In this document: positions 30,608 through 43,896 of the stretch, in pieces
How the letters are laid out: the number at the start of each line of letters is the position of its first letter
Numbering within the stretch: position 1 is the stretch's first letter
NCBI RefSeq assembly: GCF_001678905.1
Contig: NZ_CP012117.1
Coordinates: 1,302,001 to 1,366,000, forward strand
Source of the DNA: Dermabacter vaginalis
GTDB taxonomy: Bacteria; Actinomycetota; Actinomycetes; Actinomycetales; Dermabacteraceae
Length of the DNA stretch: 64,000 nt
Direction: 5' to 3'
Position numbers and translations under genes: made by a program
The notes under the pieces: model-generated
Database searches by the model: none
What the model was told of the DNA's origin: nothing
The model's input: only the letters and a program-made list of their open reading frames with translations

Positions 30608-31410
30608 GGCTTCCTTCCTTCTGTGAGCAAATCTGTGGTGACGTCCGAGGCGAGTTCCCCTTCCGCCATGGACTCAGCAATCGCTGCGCTCATGGCGGGG
30701 GTCAAGTGGGTCGTGCATACGTGCGCGCCTGCCGCTCGGGTGGAGAGGCGCTGGACGGGGACGCCGAGCATACGCGAGAGCGCTGCGGTTTCCACCTCGC
30801 ACAGCTCCGGGTGCTTGGCCGCGATGTCCTGGACGGGGCAGCGCCCCTGGCACATTTGCACGGTTGTGAGGGTACGCGTCGAGGCGCCGCCTTTCCCGGG
30901 TGGGCCAACGGTCACCGTCACGGGCCTCAGTGACGCGGCGTACCCGAGTTCCTTGAGAAGGTCGATGACGAGGCGCACGCGCTTGGATGGGGGCACTTCT
31001 CCCCTCGCATTTTCGCGCTCGTACCGCCTCTCAAATTCGGCTTCCCACTCCGAAGTTCGTGCCTTTGCGAGCGTCACGAGTGCCTCGTGACCGCCTGCGC
31101 GCTCGAGTTCCCTCATCGCGAGAAGCGCGAGGCTTTCGCATTCGCGTGAGTTCGCATCGGTGTCGGGGGCTTTCGCGGCGAGCACGAACTCTTTGCGGGG
31201 CCGTCCACGACCACGGGGGCGATTAGGTGCTTCCTTTTCCTCAATAATGCCTTCGGCGTGTAATTGGGAGAGGTGCCGACGGATGGCCGCGCCCGTGAGG
31301 TGGAACCGTTCGGCAAGGTCGCCAGCGGCGATGGGGCCGTCGACGCTGATGGCCTCGATGAGACGTTCGCGCGTTGAATCCGATGCGTGCGCATCAGTGC
31401 GAGCATTCAC
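30604..31410 (-). CDS. sufR: Fe-S dependent repressor SufR
   Basis: DNA-binding regulator of the suf operon. The 268 residues start at GTG 31410, chosen because AGGAGG lies 5 nt upstream. Residues 10-75 form a winged helix ([26 protein letters not shown], then the wing [12 protein letters not shown]). The C-terminal part has four Cys spaced C-x3-C-x12-C-x27-C ([10 protein letters not shown]...PELC...HVC), the spacing known for actinobacterial SufR cluster ligands. It diverges from the ABC exporter and is followed by sufB with a 4-nt overlap, so it probably represses its own operon when holding a cluster. Confidence 0.95.
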
Positions 31411-31535
31411 GACATCCTCCTCTCGCCGAAACGGTGGACGCTCCGATTCTACAAACCGCAAGTTTCGAAAAGATAGGGAGGGTTACCTAAGTCCCGCGAA
31501 GGCGCGGTGTAAGTCACACCACGCATCGATCGCCG

Positions 31536-31547
31536 GGCAACCGTCGG
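31536..31547 (-). repeat. TCCGACGGTTGCC motif, copy 3
   Basis: On the minus strand this reads CCGACGGTTGCC (12 of 13; the leading T is G). It lies in the sufR/ABC exporter divergent spacer, about 50 nt before the exporter ATPase start. Confidence 0.6.
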
Positions 31548-31596
31548 CCCCGGGCCTCGCCGCCCGGAAGCGCGCGGAACAGTACGATGGAGAGCC

Positions 31597-32496
31597 ATGG
31601 GCAAGAACACCACCACAGTGAAGGGTTCACCGAAGGCGGCGCCAGCGTCGGCCCTCGAGATCGCGAACCTGAGGAAACAATTCGGAGACGTGACGGCGTG
31701 CGAAAACGTCAGCCTCACGGCAAATTTTGGTGAGATCACCGCCCTTCTTGGCCCCAATGGCGCGGGAAAATCGACGACCATTGCGTGCGCCACCGGGCTC
31801 CTCAACCCCGATGGCGGCGAAGTTCGACTCCTTGGAAGCAACCCCCGCACTCACGACGCCGAGACTCGCGCGCGCGTGGGCGTGATGCTTCAGGACGGCG
31901 GGCTCACCTCCGGTGCCACTGCGAAGCATCTTCTCGAATACGCTTCCTGCCTTTATTCGCACCCTCGAAACTGGCGAGTGCTCTCGAGCGAACTGGGCAT
32001 CGACGCGTTTGCCTCAACGCTCGTGCGTCGCCTTTCCGGCGGGCAACGCCAGCGCCTCAGCCTCGCGCTCGCACTGCTCGGAGAACCGGATGTCCTCTTC
32101 CTCGACGAGCCCACCGCGGGCATGGACGCGGCCGTCAAGCGCCGCACGCGTGAATTGATCCGCGCGGAAGCTGAGCGAGGGGCAGCAGTAATTCTCACCT
32201 CCCACGCGCTCGACGACATCGCCTCACTTGCCGATCGCATCATCGTGATCGCCGGTGGCGTCGTGCGGGCCGACGGCACCCTCGCCGACGTCGAAAATAC
32301 CCTCGGGAATGGCACAGCGCTCGCGCTCGACGTCTCGGCGACAGCCCCAGCACAAGAGAATCTCACGGGATTCGAGCGTGCCGTGCGCGAGGCCGCGACG
32401 GCGCACGGGGTTTCGCTCACGGTCAATCGTGGCCCCGCCTCGCTCGAGGACATCCTCGTCACGCTCTCCACGCACTCAACGAAGGAGCAAAAGTGA
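31597..32496 (+). CDS. ABC exporter, ATP-binding subunit
   Basis: ATPase of a DrrA-type two-component ABC exporter. The 299 residues contain Walker A LLGPNGAGKSTTIA, Q-loop LQDGGLTSG, signature RLSGGQRQRLSLAL, Walker B VLFLDEPTAGMD, and H-loop LTSHALDDI. A C-terminal region of about 80 residues follows, as in drug- or polymer-export ATPases. The gene couples to the permease gene through a GTGA overlap. The same trio (ATPase, permease, ctaA) beside sufR is found in mycobacteria (Rv1456c-Rv1458c), so it may serve haem or cytochrome biogenesis; substrate unknown. Confidence 0.92.
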   Translation: MGKNTTTVKGSPKAAPASALEIANLRKQFGDVTACENVSLTANFGEITALLGPNGAGKSTTIACATGLLNPDGGEVRLLGSNPRTHDAETRARVGVMLQDGGLTSGATAKHLLEYASCLYSHPRNWRVLSSELGIDAFASTLVRRLSGGQRQRLSLALALLGEPDVLFLDEPTAGMDAAVKRRTRELIRAEAERGAAVILTSHALDDIASLADRIIVIAGGVVRADGTLADVENTLGNGTALALDVSATAPAQENLTGFERAVREAATAHGVSLTVNRGPASLEDILVTLSTHSTKEQK

Positions 32497-33287
32497 GCAT
32501 CGCCGATCGTCATTCGCCCAGTGTGAGCGGTAGCCGCGCCGCACGAGCACCGCAGCGAATCGCCGCACACGCGAAACTCGAAGCCCGGGCACTCCTCACG
32601 AACGGCGAACAGCTCATGGTTTCGCTCATGCTGCCCGCCATGGTGCTCCTCGGTCTTCGGTTCATTCCCGTATCGCCCGCGCTTTTTGGTGGCCACACTC
32701 CTTCGATTTCCGACGCGGTTGCTGCGACGGCCGTCACGGCGATCATCGCGACTTCACTCACCTCCCAGGCGATCTCCACGGGTTTTGACCGCCGTAATGG
32801 TGTGCTGCGCTGGATTGCCACAACACCGCTCGGCCGGGGCGGGTACATGCTCGGCAAACTTGGCGCCCTCTCCCTCGTCCACATCCTGCAGATCGTCGTT
32901 CTCGGCGTGCTGTCACTCGCACTCGGATGGCGTCCCACAGCAAGCGAAATCCTGTGGTCGATCCCTGCATGGATTCTCGCGACGTGCGCATTCGGAGGCC
33001 TCGGCCTTTTGATCGCCGGTACGCTCCGTACGGAGGCTGTGCTCGCGCTTTCCAATATCTTCTTCCTCCTCTTCATTGCCGTGGGCGGTGTCGCTATTCC
33101 CGCGAAGAGTTTCCCGGCTCCCCTGGACGCCATCGTCGCGCTCTTACCGTCAGCGGCGGCCACGAATGCCCTCACCGCTGCGCTTTCGGGCCACGCGCCC
33201 TCCCTATGGTCACTCGCGCTCCTTGCGATTTGGGCCGCCCTCTTTGGCGGCCTGACGGTGAGATTCTTCCGCTGGACGAGCAGCTGA
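32493..33287 (+). CDS. ABC exporter, permease subunit
   Basis: A 264-residue ABC-2 type permease with about six membrane helices (first at residues 45-65). Start is the GTG at 32493, overlapping the ATPase stop. Motifs of the ABC-2 class are STGFDRRNGVLRWIATTPLGRGGYMLGKL and AVGGVAIPAKSFPAPLDAIVALLPSAAATNAL. It works with the upstream ATPase. ctaA begins 37 nt downstream. Confidence 0.9.
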   Translation: MSIADRHSPSVSGSRAARAPQRIAAHAKLEARALLTNGEQLMVSLMLPAMVLLGLRFIPVSPALFGGHTPSISDAVAATAVTAIIATSLTSQAISTGFDRRNGVLRWIATTPLGRGGYMLGKLGALSLVHILQIVVLGVLSLALGWRPTASEILWSIPAWILATCAFGGLGLLIAGTLRTEAVLALSNIFFLLFIAVGGVAIPAKSFPAPLDAIVALLPSAAATNALTAALSGHAPSLWSLALLAIWAALFGGLTVRFFRWTSS

Positions 33288-33324
33288 GCCGCGGGTCCCG
33301 GCCGGGGTTTCTTACACTTGGCGC

Positions 33325-34293
33325 ATGACCTCTCCGAAGAGCACACCACGCGCCGTTGCCGAGCGCCACAATCGCTGGATTTACGTCATTTTTTGGATCA
33401 ATCTCGCGTGCCAAATCGGCATCATCGTGACGGGCGGCATCGTGCGCTTGACGAAGTCGGGGCTCGGCTGCTCCTCGTGGCCGCACTGCGAACCGGGACA
33501 ATTCACGCCGCGGTATCACCCCGAATCGGGACTGCGCCCCTTCATCGAATTTGGCAACCGTGCGCTCACGCTCGTGTTGCTCATCTTCGCGATCCTCGTG
33601 CTCGTCGCCACCTATAAGCACCTTCGCGCCAAAGGCGCGGGATTCGTGCGCCTTTCGTGGGTGCCGCTCGCGCTGACGCTCTTCCAGGCGGTGTGGGGCA
33701 TGCTCGTCGTCTACCTCCACCTCCACCCCTTCTTCGTGTCGGTGCACTTCATCGTCTCGCCGATCCTCGTGGCGTCCTCCGCGGTTTTGGTCTACCGACT
33801 TTACGAGGGCAACGGTTCTGCAAGACTTGCCGTGAACCGCGGCGCTCAATTCGTTTTTTGGCCACTTGCTGCCGTCGGGTTTGCGGTGCTGATTCTTGGA
33901 ACTCTTACGACCGGCTCAGGCCCGCACTCCGGTGACGCCAACACCCCGCAACGCTTCCCGTTCAACCCGGCGAGAATCGCGTGGCTTCACGCCGATTTCG
34001 TATGGCTTTTCTGCGGGCTTCTGCTCGGTGTCGCCATCATCCTTATGATCACAAAGGCGCACACTCGGGCGAAGAATGCTCTCATTGCCCTCACGGTCGT
34101 GACGCTCCTCCAGGGCGCGATCGGGTACATCCAATATTTCACCGGCCTACCCGAGGCTCTCGTGGGGTTGCATATGTTTGGCGCGGCCCTGCTCTCCGCG
34201 GGCATCGCGTGGCTCGGCGCAAGCCTGTTCACGTGGTACCCGATCGGGGAAGGCACGGCACCGCACGACCACTCAAAGGAGGCGCAGCAATGA
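33325..34293 (+). CDS. ctaA: Haem A synthase (COX15/CtaA)
   Basis: Oxidises haem O to haem A for cytochrome c oxidase. It has 322 residues and about eight membrane helices. Haem-ligand regions with conserved His are seen in FIEFGNRALTLVL, VYLHLHPFFVSVHFIVSP, ARIAWLHADFVWLF and EALVGLHMFGAAL; GGIVRLTKSGLGCSSWPHCEPG is the N-terminal signature. The first two cytoplasm-exterior Cys of long forms are partly present (CSSWPHC). Its stop overlaps the map start (ATGA). Confidence 0.95.
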   Translation: MTSPKSTPRAVAERHNRWIYVIFWINLACQIGIIVTGGIVRLTKSGLGCSSWPHCEPGQFTPRYHPESGLRPFIEFGNRALTLVLLIFAILVLVATYKHLRAKGAGFVRLSWVPLALTLFQAVWGMLVVYLHLHPFFVSVHFIVSPILVASSAVLVYRLYEGNGSARLAVNRGAQFVFWPLAAVGFAVLILGTLTTGSGPHSGDANTPQRFPFNPARIAWLHADFVWLFCGLLLGVAIILMITKAHTRAKNALIALTVVTLLQGAIGYIQYFTGLPEALVGLHMFGAALLSAGIAWLGASLFTWYPIGEGTAPHDHSKEAQQ

Positions 34294-35087
34294 GCCTGTT
34301 CCGCACGAAACGTTACCCAACCCCCGAAGAAATCAAACCCGCGGGCGAGTTCGTGGCGGGCGTGCTCGCAGCGCTTGAGAAAACCGTCGCCGTGGGCGAC
34401 AACCTCCTGGAGATCGACGCCGAAGTTCACCGCATGATCCGCGAAGCCGGCGCGACCTCGTGCTACCTCGACTACCACCCGAGTTTCGGCGGCTCGCCCT
34501 TCGGCAAAGTCATATGTTTGAGCGTGAATAACGCGGTGCTCCACGGCCGCCCCTACGACCGCAACCTCGAGAGCGGAGACCTGCTATCCATGGACTTCGC
34601 TATCGAACTCGAGGGATGGGTTGCCGATTCTTCGCTCTCGATCGTTGTGGGTGAACAGCGCGAAGACCACCTGACACTCATTCGCGACACCGAGAGCGTG
34701 ATGTGGGCGGGAATCAACGCTGCCCGCGCCGGCAACACGGTTGGCGATATCGGTCACGCCGTTGAGACCCGGGCCGCGGAGTTGGGCTACACGATTAATC
34801 ATGAGTTTGGCGGCCACGGCGTTGGCCGCACAATGCACGAAGCTCCCTTCGTACCGAACTACGGCGCCCCGGGGTCCGGATCGCGGTTGCGCGAAGGTAT
34901 GGCACTGACCGTTGAACCGTTCCTTACCCCCACGACCGACGTTATGCGCATTACCGAGCGAGACGGCTGGACGGTTGAGTCGGGTGACGGCTCGACTGGC
35001 GCGCACGCAGAGCACACTCTCATCGTCACGAAGGACGAGCCCATCATCGTCACGGCTCGCACCCCTGACCTCCCCCGGATTGCATAG
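34290..35087 (+). CDS. map: Type I methionine aminopeptidase
   Basis: Removes initiator methionine. The 265-residue MetAP domain shows metal ligands in LSMDFAIELEGWVADSS (Asp, Asp), GHGVGRTMHEAPFVP (His), LTVEPFL (Glu), and AHAEHTLIV (Glu). The early His is in LDYHPSFGGSPF, where most type I enzymes have GYHGFP. ATG at 34290, with AAAGGAGG upstream. The TAG stop lies inside copy C of the G-rich repeat. Confidence 0.96.
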   Translation: MSLFRTKRYPTPEEIKPAGEFVAGVLAALEKTVAVGDNLLEIDAEVHRMIREAGATSCYLDYHPSFGGSPFGKVICLSVNNAVLHGRPYDRNLESGDLLSMDFAIELEGWVADSSLSIVVGEQREDHLTLIRDTESVMWAGINAARAGNTVGDIGHAVETRAAELGYTINHEFGGHGVGRTMHEAPFVPNYGAPGSGSRLREGMALTVEPFLTPTTDVMRITERDGWTVESGDGSTGAHAEHTLIVTKDEPIIVTARTPDLPRIA

Positions 35088-35101
35088 TCGTTGTGGGGGT
35101 T
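35078..35101 (+). repeat. G-rich intergenic repeat, copy C
   Basis: Reads GATTGCATAG then TCGTTGTGGGGGTT; two substitutions relative to copies B and D before the GTTGTGGGGG core, and the end differs. The last three codons of map (Ile, Ala, stop) are within it. Same orientation as copy D beyond the CAP gene. Confidence 0.75.
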
Positions 35102-35150
35102 ACCCCTGCCCTGCACCTGTCCGCGCTACGCGAGCCCGTGGGCGGTGAAT

Positions 35151-35163
35151 TCCGACGGTTGCC
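35151..35163 (+). repeat. TCCGACGGTTGCC motif, copy 4
   Basis: Exact motif in the map-CAP spacer, 73 nt upstream of the MtrA-like box. Confidence 0.7.
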
Positions 35164-35235
35164 AGCGCTCATTCGCGCCTCAAACCCCCAGGGACCCTCC
35201 CCTTCTAGCCCCCTCGCGCAAAAATTCACCGAAAT

Positions 35236-35251
35236 GTAACATTTTGGTAAC
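35236..35251 (+). promoter_or_regulatory. MtrA-like direct repeat (GTAAC-N6-GTAAC)
   Basis: GTAAC ATTTTG GTAAC: two identical pentamers with a 6-bp gap, matching the direct-repeat binding pattern described for actinobacterial MtrA at cell-wall genes. It lies about 40 nt before a -10-like TAGTAT (35294-35299), a sensible activator position. GlnR boxes have similar spacing but a GAAAC second half, so MtrA fits better. Confidence 0.45.
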
Positions 35252-35418
35252 GGCATGGTCGCTCCCCGCCTTCGTTCGAAACGGCGTAAGTAGTAGTATC
35301 CGTAGCGGCCCAGGCCAGATCCCGGTCCGAAAACACTGCCCACCGCCCTCTTTCCCTCAGTGGCGAACAGCGATGGCAACAGTGGCCGAGACACTCGAGC
35401 ACAGAAAAGAGACTCTCC

Positions 35419-37653
35419 ATGACCCTCACCCGTAAGAAGCTTGGGCCGGTCCTCGGCCTTGGACTCTCCTTGTCGCTCCTCGCTGCGTGCTCCGGCGGCA
35501 GTGCGTCCAACGACGCCGCGCAGTCGCCGTCTTCAAGTGTGACGGCCAGTGCGGATTCGTCTTCGAGCTCCTCCACGAGCACGGATGACACGGAGGACAG
35601 GCTTCCGGGTTCCGTGGATTCGTCCCCCGCGTCCTCGGAAGAGGAAGACCATTCTGGGGAGTCCCTCGCGCAGCAGTGGGCCCGGAAGAGGAACCGTGCT
35701 TCCGGCCAAGATTCCAATGTGAACGCCGAGAGCGATGCAAGCTCGGACAGCAGCGGGCGTCGACGTGCCCAGGGTGACTCCGAGTTGAGTGCTGGCCGTA
35801 CGCCCGAAAATACTCGCGAAAATGGCTCAGGCCAGCAAAGGCCGGCCTTTGAAGTCACGCCTGATACCGCACTTGCTCACGGAGAATCCGATGCGCCGAT
35901 TCCGCCCGCACAGGATCCCTCGAACGGCCCGGGTCCCTTCCCGGGCAACGTGGTGGCGCAACCGGCGGAGCCGAAGCCCGCGCAGCCGAAGCCACATCCC
36001 ACACCCGAAAAACCTGGCGACGGTACCGGTAAGCCAGCTCCGAAGCCGCACAAGCCGGGCAAACCGAGCAATCCCGCTCCGGAGCCCGGAAGCCCCAAGC
36101 CCGGAAAGCCGGGCAACTCGCACAACTCCGGCACCGTCACGATTGCGGCCTTTGATGAAGAGGGCTACAACTCCGCACTCGCAAGCTGGAAGCGCGACCG
36201 AGATGAGGCTCGCAGTGAGGCTGAGCGTTCGAACCGAGCCCTCGACGATGCGCGCCGCACTGTCGAGGCAGCACGTGACAAGGCTGATGCCTCGCAGCGC
36301 AGGTACGAAGAAGAAAAGGCGAAGCTCGATGAACTCGTCGCTGCCATGCCCGGTACGGGCGATCTCGCCCAGAAGCGCGACCTCGCGGCGAAGCTGAAGG
36401 TCGAAGCGCAGAAGGCCGCCGCCGACGTTGAGACCGCTGAGAAGAAGGTCACCGACGCTGAGAAGAAGAAGCAGGATGCCGATCGCAAGCTCGAGCAGGC
36501 CACCAAGCAGCTCGAGGTGCTTTCCGACAAGCGTGACAACATTGCGATTCAGAGCAACCTCGAGTTCGCACAGCTGAATTCGGAAGACCAGCTTCGTGCC
36601 CTCTCCGACGCCCTCGCGGAGCGTGTGAACAACTACCGCGTGAAGAACGGTCTGAACGAACTCGTGTACGCACCGGTGTTCAACGACAAGGCCGCAGACT
36701 GGTCCACGACTATGGCCACGAGCAAGGACTTCACGCACTCGAATAGGGACGAAGAAGGCTACAGCAGCGAGAACATCGTCGCCGCGACCTGCAGCACGGA
36801 GATGGAGACCGTCGACGAGTGCGCCGATGCTTTGTTCGAGCAGTGGCAAAAGTCGGATGACCAGAACAAGAACATGCTTGACGAGACCTTCTCGCATGCT
36901 GGTATGGGCCTTGCAAAGGGCGACGACGGCCAGGTGTACGGCACCAACATGTTCTTCATCAAAGATGACGTCCACGAGGCTAACTCCACCACCGTCGTCC
37001 CGAAGTCGAAGGGCATGCCCGAAAATCTTGACGGCGAATACGTGCCCGAGGGTGCAATCGCGGTCACGGGTGGCACGAAGCTCGCCCACACGGTTGACGA
37101 TCGCAACACCGCCGCGTACGACAAGTGGGAAGGCGGCAAGGACGGCCTCGACTACACGAAGGGCGTGCGCCGCGGTGTTGATAAGCGGATTTCTGAGCTT
37201 GAAGAAGCCCCGCGGGTCGATGAATTGAAGAACCTCGATTCGGACATCAGCGAAGCGCAGGCCAAGGTCGACGCGGCCCAGGCCGAAGCCGACCAGAGCA
37301 ATCAGGACCTCGAAGACGCCAAGAGGGCTAAGGGCGACGCAGACATTCGGAAGACCGAGAGCGAGGATGCCTCCTCTAAGGCTCAGGCTGACCTCGCCGA
37401 GGCCGAAGCTGCCGCGCCTGAGGCCGACACTGCACGCAAGCAGCAGCAGGCCAAGGTCGACAATCAAAGTAAGATCGTAGGCGAGGCAGAATCAAACGCC
37501 GCTCGCGACAACAAAGCGGCGTCGGATGCCGAGAACGAGCTGAATGAAGCGCAGGCGAAAGCTGACGACGCGAAAGCAGAGCAGCAGCGCGTTGAGGCTC
37601 AAGAGCCGACGAAGAAGGATTACACCACGACTATCGAGGTTCCCGCGGAGTGA
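35419..37653 (+). CDS. CAP-domain lipoprotein with two coiled coils
   Basis: A 744-residue surface lipoprotein. Residues 1-24 are a lipoprotein signal peptide ending LAAC (Cys 24). A Ser/Glu/Asp-rich stalk runs to about 150 and a Pro/Lys-rich linker (KPAQPKPHPTPEKPG type) covers 170-235. Coiled coil 1 spans about 250-385. A CAP/SCP domain lies at about 395-515 (NNYRVKNGLNELVY, FTHSNRDEEGYSSENIV, SHAGMGLAKGDDGQVYGTNMFF). Coiled coil 2 spans about 595-730, rich in Ala/Glu/Lys. No LPXTG or transmembrane anchor is seen at the C-terminus. CAP domains in bacteria have unclear roles. It is monocistronic, with its own promoter region and terminator, and flanked by direct copies of the G-rich repeat. 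Confidence 0.88.
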   Translation: MTLTRKKLGPVLGLGLSLSLLAACSGGSASNDAAQSPSSSVTASADSSSSSSTSTDDTEDRLPGSVDSSPASSEEEDHSGESLAQQWARKRNRASGQDSNVNAESDASSDSSGRRRAQGDSELSAGRTPENTRENGSGQQRPAFEVTPDTALAHGESDAPIPPAQDPSNGPGPFPGNVVAQPAEPKPAQPKPHPTPEKPGDGTGKPAPKPHKPGKPSNPAPEPGSPKPGKPGNSHNSGTVTIAAFDEEGYNSALASWKRDRDEARSEAERSNRALDDARRTVEAARDKADASQRRYEEEKAKLDELVAAMPGTGDLAQKRDLAAKLKVEAQKAAADVETAEKKVTDAEKKKQDADRKLEQATKQLEVLSDKRDNIAIQSNLEFAQLNSEDQLRALSDALAERVNNYRVKNGLNELVYAPVFNDKAADWSTTMATSKDFTHSNRDEEGYSSENIVAATCSTEMETVDECADALFEQWQKSDDQNKNMLDETFSHAGMGLAKGDDGQVYGTNMFFIKDDVHEANSTTVVPKSKGMPENLDGEYVPEGAIAVTGGTKLAHTVDDRNTAAYDKWEGGKDGLDYTKGVRRGVDKRISELEEAPRVDELKNLDSDISEAQAKVDAAQAEADQSNQDLEDAKRAKGDADIRKTESEDASSKAQADLAEAEAAAPEADTARKQQQAKVDNQSKIVGEAESNAARDNKAASDAENELNEAQAKADDAKAEQQRVEAQEPTKKDYTTTIEVPAE

Positions 37654-37674
37654 CCTCGCCGCTCCCGTAATCCC

Positions 37675-37711
37675 AAGGAGGGGCTGCCTCATCCCGAGGC
37701 AGCCCCTCCTT
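37675..37711 (+). terminator. Terminator after CAP lipoprotein
   Basis: Perfect 16-bp stem starting AAGGAGGGGCTGCCTC with loop ATCCC, 22 nt after the CAP stop. It lacks a long U-tract on the plus strand (TTCGTCG), so it may be bidirectional, also ending the convergent acn transcript. Confidence 0.8.
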
Positions 37712-37715
37712 CGTC

Positions 37716-37743
37716 GATTGCATAGGGGTTGTGGGGGTTTGGG
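37716..37743 (+). repeat. G-rich intergenic repeat, copy D
   Basis: Reads GATTGCATAG then GGGTTGTGGGGGTTTGGG, identical to copy B over 26 nt. It starts 5 nt after the CAP terminator and is in the same orientation as copy C, 2.6 kb away. Confidence 0.88.
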
Positions 37744-37863
37744 AAATCAGCAATGTGCCCGGGCCCGTGCGAAGCGGCATCACTTTCGAGCCATGCGACG
37801 CCACAAGCCCGCGCATCAGGCGATACGCGGGCTGCGGAACAGTGAAGCGGCTCCGGCTCTCCC

Positions 37864-40524
37864 CTACTCGGCGAGCGAGCGCAGGACGTACTGCAGGATA
37901 CCGCCGGCACGGAAGTAGTCGGCTTCGCCGGGGGTATCGATGCGCACGAGCGCCTCGAACTCGATGGGTTCTTCACCTTCGCGCGTTGCGCGTACGGAGA
38001 CGGTTTTCGGGGTGACGCCTTCGTTGAGAGCGCTCACGCCAGAAATGGAGAAGGTTTCTTCGCCCGTGAGTCCGAGGCTTTCAGCCGACTCGCCAGCGGG
38101 ATACTGCAGAGGCAGCACACCCATACCGATCAGGTTTGAACGGTGAATACGCTCGTAGCTCTCGGCGATAACCGCGCGCACGCCCAGCAGCTTCGTGCCC
38201 TTGGCTGCCCAGTCGCGAGAGGAGCCGGTGCCGTACTCCTTGCCGGCGAGGACGACGAGCGGAATTCCCGCTTCGGCGTAGTCCTGGGCGGCGTCGTAAA
38301 TAAAGCTCTGCTCACCGGTGAGGAAGTTCCTCGTGTCACCACCTTCGACGCCGTCGAGAAGAAGGTTCTTGAGGCGAATGTTCGCAAAGGTGCCACGGAT
38401 CATGACCTCGTGATTGCCACGGCGCGAGCCGTAGGAATTGAAGTCTTTACGGTCCACGCCGTGCTCGCGAAGGTACCGCCCGGCCGGCGAGTCGGCCTTG
38501 ATGGCACCCGCGGGCGAGATGTGGTCGGTTGTCGTCGAGTCGCCGACCTTCACGAGTACGCGCGCATCTTCGATGTCACGAATTGACTCAAGCTCCATGC
38601 TCATCCCCTCGAAATACGGGGGTTTGCGCACGTAGGTCGAATCTTCGCTCCACGAGAACGTGTCGCCGTCGGGAGTGTCGAGGCCGTGCCAACGCTCATC
38701 GCCGGCGAAGACATCGGAGTAGTCGTTTTCGAACATCTCTTGCGTGATGTTCTCGGCGATCGTGTGTTCGACTTCGGCGGGAGTCGGCCAAATGTCGCGA
38801 AGGAACACGGCGTTGCCCTCGGCATCGTGCCCGAGCGGGTCGGAGTCGAAGTCAAAGTTCATCGTGCCGGCAAGCGCGTAGGCGATGACGAGGGGCGGCG
38901 AGGCCAGGTAGTTCATTTTGACGTCGGGGTTAATGCGCCCCTCGAAATTGCGGTTGCCCGAAAGCACAGCGGTCACGGCAAGGTCGCCCTCGGCAATGGC
39001 TTCGGAGATTTCGGGGGCGAGAGGGCCGGAGTTGCCGATGCAGGTCGTGCAGCCGTACCCGACGAGGTGGAAGCCAAGCTTCTCGAGGAACGGCCACAGG
39101 CCGGCTTTCTCGTAGTAGTCGGTGACAACCTTCGAGCCAGGTGCCATCGACGTTTTCACCCAGGGCTTCACGTCGAGGCCACGTTCAGCCGCGTTCTTCG
39201 CCAGCAGCCCCGCGGCCATCATGACCGATGGGTTCGAGGTGTTGGTGCACGACGTGATGGACGCGATCGAGACGATGCCGTGGTCGATCGTGTAATCGGT
39301 TCCCTTGACCGCTGTGGGGTTCGAGGTGTTCTCGGCATAGGCCGGCAGGGATTTCGCGAAGCTTTCTTTCGCTTCGGTGAGCACGATGCGATCTTGCGGG
39401 CGTTTGGGCCCGGCGATCGAGGGGACGACGGTTGCCAGGTCTAGCTCGAGGTATTCGGAGTATTCCGCTTCCCTCTTAGGGTCATGCCAGAGCCCCTGAC
39501 GCTTGGCGTAAGCCTCGACAAGGGCCACTTGATCGTCGTCACGGCCCGTGAGGCGCAAGTAGTCGAGAGTGACATCATCGATCGGGAAGATCGCGGCGGT
39601 CGAGCCAAACTCGGGGCTCATATTGCCGATCGTGGCGCGGTTCGCAAGGGGGACCTGCGAAACGCCTTCGCCGTAGAACTCCACGAATTTGCCCACGACA
39701 CCGTGCTTGCGGAGCATCTCGGTGATCGTGAGGACAACGTCGGTAGCGGTTGCGGCGGGCGGGATTTCGCCAGTGAGCTTGAAGCCCACGACTCGCGGGA
39801 TGAGCATTGACACGGGCTGGCCGAGCATGGCCGCTTCCGCCTCGATCCCGCCAACGCCCCAGCCGAGCACGCCGAGACCGTTGACCATCGTCGTGTGCGA
39901 GTCGGTGCCGACGCACGAATCGGGATAGGCGCGCACAACGCCGTCAACCTCGCGAGTCATGACGGTGCGGGCGAGGTACTCGATATTGACCTGGTGGACA
40001 ATGCCCGTGCCCGGCGGGACTACCTTGAAGTCATCGAAGGCGCCCTGACCCCAACGAAGGAACTGGTAGCGTTCGCGGTTGCGCTCGAACTCGAGATCCA
40101 TATTGAGCTCGAGTGCGTCAACGCGGCCGGCGACATCGATCATGACGGAATGGTCGATCACCATTTCCGCAGGAGCAAGGGGGTTGATCTTGGAGGGATC
40201 GCCGCCGAGGTCGCTCATAGCTTCGCGCATCGTCGCAAGATCCACAATGCAGGGCACGCCGGTGAAGTCCTGCATGATGACGCGCGCTGGCGTGAACTGG
40301 ATTTCCTCACTCGGCTCGGCCTGGGGATCCCAGTTGGCGAGCGCCTGAACGTGGGCGGCGGTGATGTTTTCGCCGTCTTCAGTGCGCAGAAGGTTTTCAA
40401 GGAGCACTTTGAGGCTGTAGGGAAGCCGACGGTACCCCTCAACAGCGTCGAGTGCATAGATCTCGTATTCGCGCGAGTTGACACTCAGGGAGGTCTTCGC
40501 GCCGAAAGAATTCACCGTGCTCAT
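37864..40524 (-). CDS. acnA: Aconitate hydratase
   Basis: Citrate-isocitrate isomerisation in the TCA cycle, with a [4Fe-4S] cluster. The 886 residues match AcnA/IRP-type enzymes. Cluster Cys appear in [16 protein letters not shown] and [15 protein letters not shown]; other motifs are [22 protein letters not shown] and the swivel-domain [15 protein letters not shown]. Single-gene unit, convergent to the CAP gene. Beyond its start, on the same strand, lies a TrmA-type methyltransferase gene 40 nt upstream, the order also seen in Streptomyces. Confidence 0.98.
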
Positions 40525-40564
40525 CGAGGCTCCTATCGCAAGTGCGGTCGATCGTTGTCAGTAA

Positions 40565-41890
40565 TTATCGTGCGGCCCGTTCGAGCTTCACAACGCATTC
40601 CATGTGGTGGGTGTGGGGGTACAGGTCGAAGACTTGGAAATCGGTGATGGCCCAGCCCTCGTGCTCGGCAACTCGCAGGTCGCGCGCGAGAGTTGAGGGT
40701 TCGCACGAAACGTAGACCATGCGCTCGCGAGTGAGCTCGGCAAGGCGCGCCATGGCCTTTTCGCCAACGCCCGCGCGGGGCGGGTCCATAATGACGCGGT
40801 CAGGCCCTTCATTCGCTTCCGCGAGGAAGTCGCGGACATCCGCGGTGACGGCTTTGGCCTGGGGGTAGGCCGCGAGGTTCTCGGTGGCGTCGGCGCTCGC
40901 GCGTTCCGCTCCCTCGACGCTCACAAGTGCACCTGTGCCGCCGACTGCGCGGGCTGCGGGGACCGAAAAAAGGCCCGCCCCGCCGTACAGATCCCAAATC
41001 CGCTCACCTTCGTGCGCGTCAAGAGCGTGTCCGACGGCGGCGGTCAGAAGGCGCGGCGCATCAACGTGCACTTGCCAGAAACCGCCCGCGTAGAGAGTGA
41101 AAACGTCATCGCCGACGATTTCCCGCACCGAGTCGTCGCCGCGCAGAGCAGTGGTACTCGTGCGCGTGGCGAGCACGATGCTCGCATTGTCGCAGGCGGC
41201 AGGAAGATTGAGATCGTCGAGGGTCAAATCATTCTCGGAGCGCACGATGATCGCGGGCGCGCTCCCGCTTGGAGCGACGACATCGACTGCAACGACGCCG
41301 CTCGGGGCCTTCCACACGTCGATGCCGAGTGCTTGGATTGCGGGATGAGCGAGAGGATTTGACCCAACGGCGTGAATTTCGTGGGAGCGCCAGCCGTGCA
41401 TGCCAACCTTGCCATGATCGACGGCGAAGCGGACGCGCGAGCGCCAACCGAGCCCCGTGTGGTCGTCCCGAGCGGGCTCGATTTGGATGTTTTCAATCGG
41501 GTACGTGCCAATTCGGGCGCGCGTCATGAGCTCCTGAAGAACTTCGGTCTTGATACGACGTTGCGCTTCGATGCGAATATGGGCATAGTCGGCTCCACCG
41601 AGTCCCTCGTATCCGCATTCAGGCCACGCACTGGGGACGCGATCGGGCCCAGCCTCGATCACGTCGATCGTTTCGGCACGCCAAAAGCGCGCGTTCGCCT
41701 TCGAGTCGGGAAGCACTTCAGCAACGACGGTTTCTCCCGGGCACGCGCCACGCACGAAGACAACGCGACCTTCGTGACGCGCGACGAAGGTGCCTCCATG
41801 TGCCGGCTTATCGACGGTCAGGGTGATCAGCCGCCCTTCCCCTGCGAGCTCCTGCACTTCTTTTGGTCGCTCGGATGCGGGACGGGTCAT
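40565..41890 (-). CDS. TrmA/RlmD-family RNA (uracil-5) methyltransferase
   Basis: SAM-dependent RNA m5U methyltransferase. The 441 residues begin with a TRAM domain (about residues 15-70: LITLTVDKPAHGGTFVARHEGRVVFVRGACPGETV). A central region follows, then the Rossmann methyltransferase with WDLYGGAGLFSVPAA (SAM), IMDPPRAGV, and the catalytic Cys in MVYVSCEPSTLARDL. The four-Cys Fe-S motif of RlmD is not evident. Target (tRNA U54 or 23S rRNA) is unknown. The ATG at 41890 overlaps the stop of the KimA-like gene (ATGA). Confidence 0.93.
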   Translation of the reverse strand: MTRPASERPKEVQELAGEGRLITLTVDKPAHGGTFVARHEGRVVFVRGACPGETVVAEVLPDSKANARFWRAETIDVIEAGPDRVPSAWPECGYEGLGGADYAHIRIEAQRRIKTEVLQELMTRARIGTYPIENIQIEPARDDHTGLGWRSRVRFAVDHGKVGMHGWRSHEIHAVGSNPLAHPAIQALGIDVWKAPSGVVAVDVVAPSGSAPAIIVRSENDLTLDDLNLPAACDNASIVLATRTSTTALRGDDSVREIVGDDVFTLYAGGFWQVHVDAPRLLTAAVGHALDAHEGERIWDLYGGAGLFSVPAARAVGGTGALVSVEGAERASADATENLAAYPQAKAVTADVRDFLAEANEGPDRVIMDPPRAGVGEKAMARLAELTRERMVYVSCEPSTLARDLRVAEHEGWAITDFQVFDLYPHTHHMECVVKLERAAR

Positions 41891-43896
41891 GGGGCTAGCT
41901 CCTTGACAACGGGATTCGTGTACGACGCGATCGATGCTTCCTGCTCGGGACCATCGAGATCCCAAGGGACACGGCGGACCGTGACGCGCTCATACTTTTC
42001 GAGTCGGGTCGTGACTCGCCTCAGCACGTGGTTGTGCATGATCGACTCCCACCAGTGTCCCACGAGAAATTCAGGAATGTAGACAACCACGGCGTCACGG
42101 GGGTACGTGCGTGTAAAAGATCGCACGTAGTCGTCGAGCGGCGCGAGGAGGGCGCGATACGGCGAATTGATCACGCGTAGCGGGATGGGGATCTTGCGCC
42201 TGAGCCACTCCGTGCTAAGCGTGTCGATCGCGGAATCGTTGGTCTTCACGGCCACGGCTTGGAGGCTCAGGTGCGGTGACGCCATCGCTTCCTTGATCGC
42301 TCGAATGGCGGGTCGGTTCAGTTGCGTGAGCAGAACGATGCCCCGTGTGGGATCTTTACCGTCGAGGGGGGCGGGTGCAGCGATCGGCCAGCGGCCAAGA
42401 TCCTCGTCGTGGCCGAGGGCGAGTTTCGAGAAGATCCGAGAGTAGTAGCGGCTGATGATCGTCATCGCTGCCCACATAAGCGCCACGGCAGCGAGTGTCA
42501 CCCATGCGCCGAGGAGGAAGTTGGCGGTGGCCACGGTCAGAAGAACCAGGGCCAGGCACACGGTGGCAACGAGACTGACCGCGCGTTTGCGGGCAAAGCG
42601 CTGGCGTTCCTTGAGCCGCACTGCCACGCGGTGTTTTTTCGTGTAGTGGCGGAACATCCCCAGCTGCCCGATCGTGAAGGTCATAAAAACGCCCACGACA
42701 TACATGTGGATGAGCAGCGTAATGTTCGCGCCCGTCGCGAGAACCACGATTTCCGCAAGCCCCGCGAGGAGCAGAATGCCATTGGAGTACACGAGCCTGT
42801 CGCCCCGTGAGGCGAACACGCGGGGGATGTAACCGGTGCGGGCGAGCGCCGCCGTCAGTACCGGCAGTCCGGTGAAGGCGGTGTTCGCGGCAATGCACAG
42901 CACGAGAGTGGCCATGGCGAGCATTGCGAGCGACATGAGCGATCCGGCCCCGAAAATGGCCTCCGCAATCTGGCCGAGCACTGGTGTCGCTTCGCTCACG
43001 CGCGCGCCTTCCGCCTCGCGGGGCGAAAGGCTCACGCGCGTCGCGAGCGCGAGTAGCATGACCCCGAGGAAAAGCACCGCCGTCATCGCGCCCGAAATGA
43101 CCAGCGTGATGCACGCATTGCGGGCTTTCGGGGGCCGGAAAACAGGCACGGTATTCGTGATGGCCTTGACACCGGATACCACGGGAAGGCCGCTCGAAAA
43201 AGCTCGCGCAAGAACGAGCGCGCCGCCGAGCGCAGTGAGAGCCACAGGCTCCCCCTCCCCCGGTTCCGGATAGCTTCCCGCATGTGGGGATAGCCCGAGC
43301 GTCCCTCGCCATGCCTCAATTCCGCCCCACACGAGCGTGATGGTGATCAAAGCGATGAAGGTATACACGGGAAGGCTCACGAGCCGCGCAGATTCCCGCG
43401 CACCTCGAAGATTCACGAGTGCAAGGAGTGCAATAATCGCCATCGTCATGCCGATTTGAAACGGTGCAAGAGGGCTTATCGCACCCCCGATATAGGCGCC
43501 CGCTTGCGAGGAGGCGACCGCGACCGTAAGTACATAATCGGTCACCAGAGCCGCACCTGCGAGTCGGCCCGCGTTCGGACCAAGATTGGTTCGCGCGACA
43601 ACGAAGTCGCTTCCCCCGCCTGGATATTCCTCGATCACGTTCAGGTGGGCGGTCACGACGATCGCCATGACAAAGACGACGGCGATTCCTACCCACGGGC
43701 TCCATGCGAAAAGGCCGATTCCGGAAAGGCCGAGCGTGAGAATGATTTCATCGGGGGCATACGCGAGTGCACTCACCGTATCGGCCGCAAAGGAGGGAAT
43801 AGCGAAGCGCTTCGGGAGGCGCTGGCGCGCGAGGCGATCGGAGCTGAACGGACGCCCGATCACAATGCGTTTGACGGAAGCGAGGGGGCGGGACAC
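41887..43896 (-). CDS. APC-superfamily permease resembling potassium importer KimA
   Basis: A 669-residue permease with about 12 membrane helices in residues 30-480 and a cytosolic C-terminal domain (about 490-669). N-terminal motifs VKRIVIGRPF, SADTVSALAYAPDEIILTL (as AADTVSALAYAP) and EYPGGGSDFVVARTNLGPNAG resemble Bacillus KimA (K+/H+ symporter controlled by c-di-AMP) more than amino-acid carriers; this is from remembered similarity. The divergent trkA pair 145 bp away supports a potassium role. Many databases would call it an amino-acid permease. ATG at 43896. Confidence 0.85.
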   Translation of the reverse strand: MSRPLASVKRIVIGRPFSSDRLARQRLPKRFAIPSFAADTVSALAYAPDEIILTLGLSGIGLFAWSPWVGIAVVFVMAIVVTAHLNVIEEYPGGGSDFVVARTNLGPNAGRLAGAALVTDYVLTVAVASSQAGAYIGGAISPLAPFQIGMTMAIIALLALVNLRGARESARLVSLPVYTFIALITITLVWGGIEAWRGTLGLSPHAGSYPEPGEGEPVALTALGGALVLARAFSSGLPVVSGVKAITNTVPVFRPPKARNACITLVISGAMTAVLFLGVMLLALATRVSLSPREAEGARVSEATPVLGQIAEAIFGAGSLMSLAMLAMATLVLCIAANTAFTGLPVLTAALARTGYIPRVFASRGDRLVYSNGILLLAGLAEIVVLATGANITLLIHMYVVGVFMTFTIGQLGMFRHYTKKHRVAVRLKERQRFARKRAVSLVATVCLALVLLTVATANFLLGAWVTLAAVALMWAAMTIISRYYSRIFSKLALGHDEDLGRWPIAAPAPLDGKDPTRGIVLLTQLNRPAIRAIKEAMASPHLSLQAVAVKTNDSAIDTLSTEWLRRKIPIPLRVINSPYRALLAPLDDYVRSFTRTYPRDAVVVYIPEFLVGHWWESIMHNHVLRRVTTRLEKYERVTVRRVPWDLDGPEQEASIASYTNPVVKELAP

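Follow-up and report, generated by a model that had tools for sequence, protein, structure and literature searches.

What does a bacterium gain from a CAP domain set between two coiled coils on a membrane-anchored stalk? The question is raised by a gene of Dermabacter vaginalis, found at 35419-37653 (+) of a 64,000-nucleotide stretch of contig NZ_CP012117.1 (positions 1,302,001 to 1,366,000; assembly GCF_001678905.1), referred to here as the window, and encoding an intact reading frame of 744 amino acids (aa). CAP domains occur widely in bacteria, and the roles of few have been worked out. The leading answer, held tentatively, is that the protein would be a chromosomal lipoprotein that spans the wall and displays a non-enzymatic CAP head. 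The layout itself, with CAP between coils, is already known from PrgA of Enterococcus; what is new here is that two tracts of the gene appear to have recombined recently between species. No published account of the protein was found in a literature search, only part of which named Dermabacter.

Order of parts

The protein is composed of a lipobox signal peptide, an acidic stalk, a proline-rich linker, a first coil (coil 1), the CAP domain, a conserved segment, a second coil (coil 2) and a short tail. The original prediction, made from the letters of the window, had claimed the order lipobox, acidic stalk, Pro-rich linker, coil, CAP and unanchored second coil, and this order is borne out by sequence, Pfam, composition and AlphaFold2. 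The signal peptide (35419..35490, +, as are all parts of the gene below) ends in the lipobox LAAC at aa 21-24 with the candidate lipidation residue Cys24, which is conserved in three Dermabacter orthologues, and the region is 100% and 92% identical in the other two. The stalk (aa 25-176; 35491..35946) is a Ser-rich low-complexity stretch with a net charge of -14 and 28% Ser/Thr, in which alignment to the two orthologues opens 9 and 14 gap columns; the Pro/Lys-rich linker (aa 177-238; 35947..36132) has 31% Pro, 15% Lys/Arg and a net charge of +5, with identities of 71% and 40%. Judged by composition, stalk and linker (aa 25-238, 214 residues) are probably disordered.

The C terminus of the protein, EPTKKDYTTTIEVPAE (EVPAE), carries no anchor, and a search for LPXTG or another anchor gave no match at E<=0.01. 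As the same genome has four matches to the LPXTG anchor family, a lack of sortase-type anchors would not explain the use of a lipid anchor. The protein is the sole PF00188 match in this genome, which is a single 2.39-Mb contig, and the Pfam search of the protein found no domain besides CAP.

Probable recombination of two tracts between species

Compared with the corresponding region of a second Dermabacter species (L001), DNA mismatch in 200-base bins across 31400-42599 is 10-33%, bar a few low-divergence exceptions. Two of the low-divergence tracts overlap the CAP gene, one at 35000-35599 with 2-5% mismatch and the other at 36200-37399 with 2.5-6%; the stalk- and linker-coding part between them differs by 18-30%, and 37400-37599, late in coil 2, by 12%. 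The same mosaic is seen at fourfold sites, where aa 251-650 have 8 differences in 178 sites vs 334 in 788 for acnA, map and ctaA together (Fisher p 1.9e-26), and aa 1-60 have 3 in 38 (p 5.8e-6 against the same three genes). Stalk and linker (aa 61-250) are at background level with 34 of 87 (p 0.57), and aa 651-744 are intermediate (8/41, p 3e-3). The neighbouring rlmD and ABC genes, both outside the background sum, have 107 of 246 and 74 of 163, respectively.

Against the third species (G039), no mosaic pattern is seen, with a fourfold divergence of 0.55-0.69 throughout. Divergence at fourfold sites would not be reduced by selection on the protein, and constraint on codons or RNA should also show against G039; recent inter-species recombination of the two tracts is therefore the simplest reading, whether in two events or in a single one after which the stalk was replaced. 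Two Dermabacter species thus appear to have recently exchanged most of the working part of the protein but not its tether, and the pattern points to separate histories of head and tether. Elsewhere in the compared region, one more low bin was recorded at 42000-42199 (5%), in a transporter gene region.

Such an exchange invites the explanation that the protein is an adhesin by which a skin coloniser binds its host or a matrix, and that this is why it passed between species. The apparent exchange of most of the outer part, with a separate history of the stalk, and the published description of Dermabacter hominis as colonising skin both suit an adhesin; Pfam shows CAP alone, however, and exchange by itself is no proof of host contact, which leaves this explanation very improbable.

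Distribution and constraint

Among 47 Dermabacteraceae genomes, seven have PF00188 matches, and a protein of the window's type is present in three of the four Dermabacter genomes (G000, G039 and G040). In four other Dermabacteraceae genomes, the five CAP proteins have different layouts. The fourth Dermabacter genome is G041; its aconitase match stops at C1:48768 and its map frame, which converges on aconitase, at about C1:48865, so the slot is empty there. In G039, the gene stands beside map, and a contig break falls between it and the aconitase gene; a different small lipoprotein-like gene (L016:595-1272) follows aconitase in this genome, near a contig end.

At E<=1e-10, a profile of the CAP domain and its following segment had matches in 12 of the order's 396 genomes, including two from Dermabacter; at E<=1e-6, it had matches in 8 of the 394 genomes of the class, one being the window's own. 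Outside Dermabacter, none of the matches listed extends past position 140 of the 204 in the profile, i.e., they cover the CAP part only. Furthermore, a home-made detector found coil-like stretches on both sides of CAP in 11 of 84 frames (a set that includes duplicates and truncated frames, 50 of them motif-picked), namely eight from three Dermabacter species and three of the five proteins of genus g74, which belongs to a different family of the same order.

Identity to the window protein is 87% and 61% for the two orthologues. Indels are absent from the coils, CAP and the following segment, and the stalk and linker together contain 14 and 32 gap columns. Whole-gene dN/dS values of 0.28 and 0.26 against the two orthologues indicate purifying selection across the whole gene. 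For coil 1 alone, the ratio is 0.95 with the nearest species, where dS is only 0.04, which accounts for the value, and 0.23 with the second. A pseudogene or chance reading frame is ruled out by these ratios, the intact frames in three species and the absence of indels from coils and CAP. The absence of any similar architecture in relatives, together with pseudogene signs, had been named in advance as grounds for abandoning the layout; relatives with the same architecture were found, and signs of decay were not.

Coiled coils and predicted structure

Heptad-like periodicity exceeds that of shuffled sequences in coil 1 (about aa 245-396; p 0.001, with 0.006 for its first half and 0.056 for its second half alone) and in coil 2 (about aa 600-728; p 0.0015), and none is found in the stalk (p 0.57). 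AlphaFold2 was run on aa 240-744 with an alignment of one orthologue and 20 CAP fragments, giving a mean pLDDT of 71.9 and a pTM of 0.40; ten-residue pLDDT means are 61-84 in coil 1, 47-85 in coil 2 with the minimum at its break, and 78-97 in the CAP core. Long helices are predicted to flank CAP at aa 247-309 (36157..36345) and 316-384 (36364..36570) on one side, and at aa 600-662 (37216..37404) and 668-727 (37420..37599) on the other. The segment at aa 523-579 (36985..37155), conserved among three species, is modelled with low confidence. Disorder in place of coils would have counted heavily against the layout; the predicted helices and the heptad periodicity argue for coiled coils instead. 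Matches to NCBIfam SMC models (E about 1e-5) reach 23 bits vs cut-offs of 567 and 729, by which an SMC-like protein is ruled out, and they are read as coiled-coil similarity.

The expectation of two coils flanking CAP holds in that helices lie on both sides, but each "coil" consists of a pair of helices separated by a conserved break: MPGxGDL at aa 310-316 in coil 1, where the window protein has MPGTGD (aa 310-315; 36346..36363; from AlphaFold2 and the orthologue alignment), and AAAPEA at aa 664-669 in coil 2 (break at aa 663-667 in the model). In the structure search, coil 1 (model residues 4-143) can be aligned over its whole length to helical hairpins in many of the 50 matches listed, among them 3k29 (Z 13.3 over 132 residues); 3k29 and similar structures are taken here to be helical hairpins. 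Coil 2 (model residues 361-488) matches the hairpin 8dcx_B in one of 50 matches listed (Z 11.8, 128 residues), a part that, by the tool's own warning, is barely tested; helical models in general often give hairpin matches with Z values of this size. End-to-end alignment with hairpins implies that each coil folds on itself, and in the model, coil 1 does so at MPGTGD and coil 2 probably at AAAPEA.

The two coils had been expected to pair antiparallel and hold CAP at the tip. The model instead favours self-hairpins, from many rows for coil 1 and from one row for coil 2. In a register test, the registers correlating as well as the expected one were 4% for the first hairpin and 17% for the second, with 9% and 17% for the pairings of N- and C-terminal coils. 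As the coils are represented by only two near-identical sequences, the N- and C-terminal coils may nonetheless pair as in PrgA; coil 1/coil 2 pairing with CAP at the tip is a possibility that the model does not show. Its fullest form, in which both coils would make one long stalk with CAP at the tip and limit cell contact or DNA uptake (surface exclusion) as in PrgA, has in its favour the shared coil-CAP-coil order and breaks nearly equally far from CAP, with 69 helical residues between break and CAP side in coil 1 and 63 in coil 2, as a matched hinge requires; against it, the model folds coil 1 on itself, and this form is considered improbable.

CAP domain and its site

The domain itself belongs to the CAP superfamily by profile and by fold. 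Pfam CAP (PF00188) matches aa 401-506 with E 2.3e-12 and 48.2 bits vs a cut-off of 21.1, and the modelled core superposes on 4ifa (Z 17.9 over 120 residues at 2.0 Å) and on GAPR-1 (Z 15.6); Pfam, AlphaFold2, structure matches and alignments together place it at aa 394-516 (36598..36966).

Eukaryotic CAP proteins typically have a tetrad of two His and two Glu residues, which does not define the superfamily. The full tetrad is absent from the window protein: His440 and Glu451 are retained in the three Dermabacter orthologues, the second Glu position (assigned by hand) is Ser479, and the His of the GHR motif is replaced in all three Dermabacter proteins by Gln, Gln and Asp, respectively (Gln482 in the window protein). 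This His was present in 25 of 25 non-Dermabacter CAP segments chosen independently of the motif, from 29 distinct segments that also included three from Dermabacter and one shortened copy of the window's own, which was dropped; in a separate comparison, it was present in five of five other CAPs. In another alignment of 20 CAPs, the GHR His and Arg and the preceding Ser were preset in 19 because the loci had been chosen by a DNA pattern for SPGHR. Cys458 and Cys468 occur in all three orthologues and form a candidate disulfide. Loss of the GHR-motif His favours a binding head over an enzyme for the CAP domain.

Proposed display across the wall

These features can be combined into the tentative explanation given at the outset. 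Cys24 would be lipidated and hold the protein in the membrane, and the low-complexity stalk and linker (aa 25-238) would traverse the peptidoglycan. A helical module of about 10-20 nm, either two self-hairpins as the model prefers or a PrgA-like antiparallel stalk of N- and C-terminal coils with matched half-way breaks, would bear CAP outside the wall or in its outer part. There, CAP with its incomplete tetrad would bind a target such as a polymer of the wall, a lipid or a protein partner on a neighbouring cell and would not act as a metal-dependent enzyme. The part from coil 1 through CAP to the beginning of coil 2 would have been exchanged recently between two Dermabacter species by homologous recombination, the stalk keeping its own history.

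Several points weigh against this explanation. Because the charge-hydropathy index is negative throughout the protein, in the coils and CAP as well, it does not set the stalk apart. The coil part of the model is backed by just the two near-identical sequences, at the low pTM given above, and its alignment with the PrgA structure 6z9l has an rmsd of 73.7 Å, so the overall shape differs. In addition, display beyond the wall is not compelled, given that DalA of Rhodobacter sphaeroides (RSP_1200) acts within the envelope at division.

DalA resembles the window protein as a CAP/YkwD-type envelope lipoprotein; it differs as a Gram-negative outer-membrane lipoprotein, the comparison being made through an NCBIfam model and its description. 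One paper describes DalA as a peptidoglycan-binding lipoprotein that becomes part of the division machinery (PMC10470522), and an earlier one describes RSP1200 as a CAP-domain protein (PMC5442454). By this analogy, the window protein would stay within the wall, where CAP would bind peptidoglycan non-covalently and the hairpins would dock on division or wall-hydrolysis proteins. Docking of this kind is in keeping with a match of modelled coil 1 to one chain of the SteB-RipA complex (146 residues, Z 11.8), but such hairpin Z values are common for helical models, and Foldseek gave E 0.43 for RipA and 0.31 for Cg1735. The NCBIfam DalA model (NF052539) has no match to the window protein at E<=1, and carriage by three of four genomes of the genus speaks against a core division role. 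A DalA-like role within the wall is rated unlikely.

Gene neighbourhood

The CAP gene stands alone and converges on acnA. Its nine neighbours at 29.2-43.9 kb include SufB, Map and AcnA over the NCBIfam cut-off, a SufR-like protein, two ABC transporter parts and an RlmD-like protein under it, and two without a match. By NCBIfam, none of the nine is a conjugation gene. A mobile-element origin was rejected, the nine neighbours showing no sign of it and the window having a G+C content of 0.59-0.66. Seven plasmid records match the protein in CAP regions only, with 25-30% identity, and no match to query A2 was found in viral contigs.

Upstream of the gene, a GTAAC-N6-GTAAC direct repeat (35236..35251, +) lies in the same place in three species, with GTTAC-N6-GTAAC at this position in the most distant orthologue. 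Genome-wide, the repeat has six matches vs three for a control, and three of the six are one identical sequence, presumably 16S rRNA; among the other copies, one precedes a TetR-like gene and another, which fits the pattern exactly, precedes a gene for a long surface protein (L094). The repeat is at most a candidate regulatory element. Between the convergent CAP and aconitase genes, a very stable hairpin with a 16-bp stem and a 5-nt loop (37675..37711, unstranded; z -6.2 for 37651-37730) looks terminator-like, although a terminator consensus scan did not list it.

Comparison with known systems

Other CAP proteins of the order share the layout in part. The g74 proteins (L026-L030) have coil-like stretches on both sides of CAP in three of five cases; they differ in a C-terminal LAxTG-like end (by eye), in shorter coils and in keeping the GH-motif His in all five. 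Among other Dermabacteraceae, L004, L005 and L007 also have CAP, but with repeats before it that by eye we take to be SLH-like and with no coil-like stretch on either side. In a Lactococcus plasmid protein (L034:1375-3381), six GA-module matches precede the CAP domain.

PrgA (Sea1) of the Enterococcus plasmid pCF10 is a precedent for the order of parts. It has CAP between two coil-rich halves, with an SMC-type coil match at aa 41-311 and a PgrA domain at 280-636, and its structures are solved (6z9l, 6z9k). A paper on PrgB describes it as having a likely protease domain on a stalk of about 40 nm, far from the wall, and a role in surface exclusion (PMC10588982). The statement that no function had been described for this layout therefore fell, as PrgA has the same order, solved structures and this reported role. 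Both proteins present CAP from a Gram-positive cell between two long coil-rich halves with Pro-marked breaks (those of PrgA read by eye). PrgA differs in its C-terminal LPXTG anchor, in having neither lipobox nor N-terminal Pro linker, in coils about twice as long (by eye) and in its place in a conjugation operon.

TIGR04320 (SEC10/PgrA) has no match to the window protein at E<=1 or E<=0.1 and gives PrgA itself 237.6 vs a cut-off of 70; it exceeds the cut-off in none of 394 Actinomycetia genomes, 145 having matches under it. Alignments with PrgA by hhalign (E 0.11 and 0.089), made with thin profiles, are not significant, though the former falls at the start of both CAP domains, and Foldseek of the model gave 6z9l with E 1.4e-3 over 612 columns and 6z9k with E 2.0e-3. 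The 50 matches listed in the other structure search do not include PrgA, an absence that is given no weight. Of the SEC10/PgrA features, the window protein thus has CAP between two coils and lacks the model match, the LPXTG anchor and the conjugation operon. The profile results and the neighbours speak against the PrgA-like form proper, and SEC10/PgrA membership is not shown; by analogy, the window protein may nonetheless work like PrgA.

In the broadest interpretation, unlikely as a whole, the window protein and its orthologues would be Dermabacter-restricted, lipid-anchored and wall-spanning contact proteins, whose coil-CAP-coil head with a degenerate site is exchanged independently of a variable tether and which would have reached a chromosomal PrgA-like display by convergence. 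A chromosomal, lipid-anchored counterpart of PrgA, if true, would suggest that the coil-held CAP domain is a surface device of general use, not one confined to plasmids.
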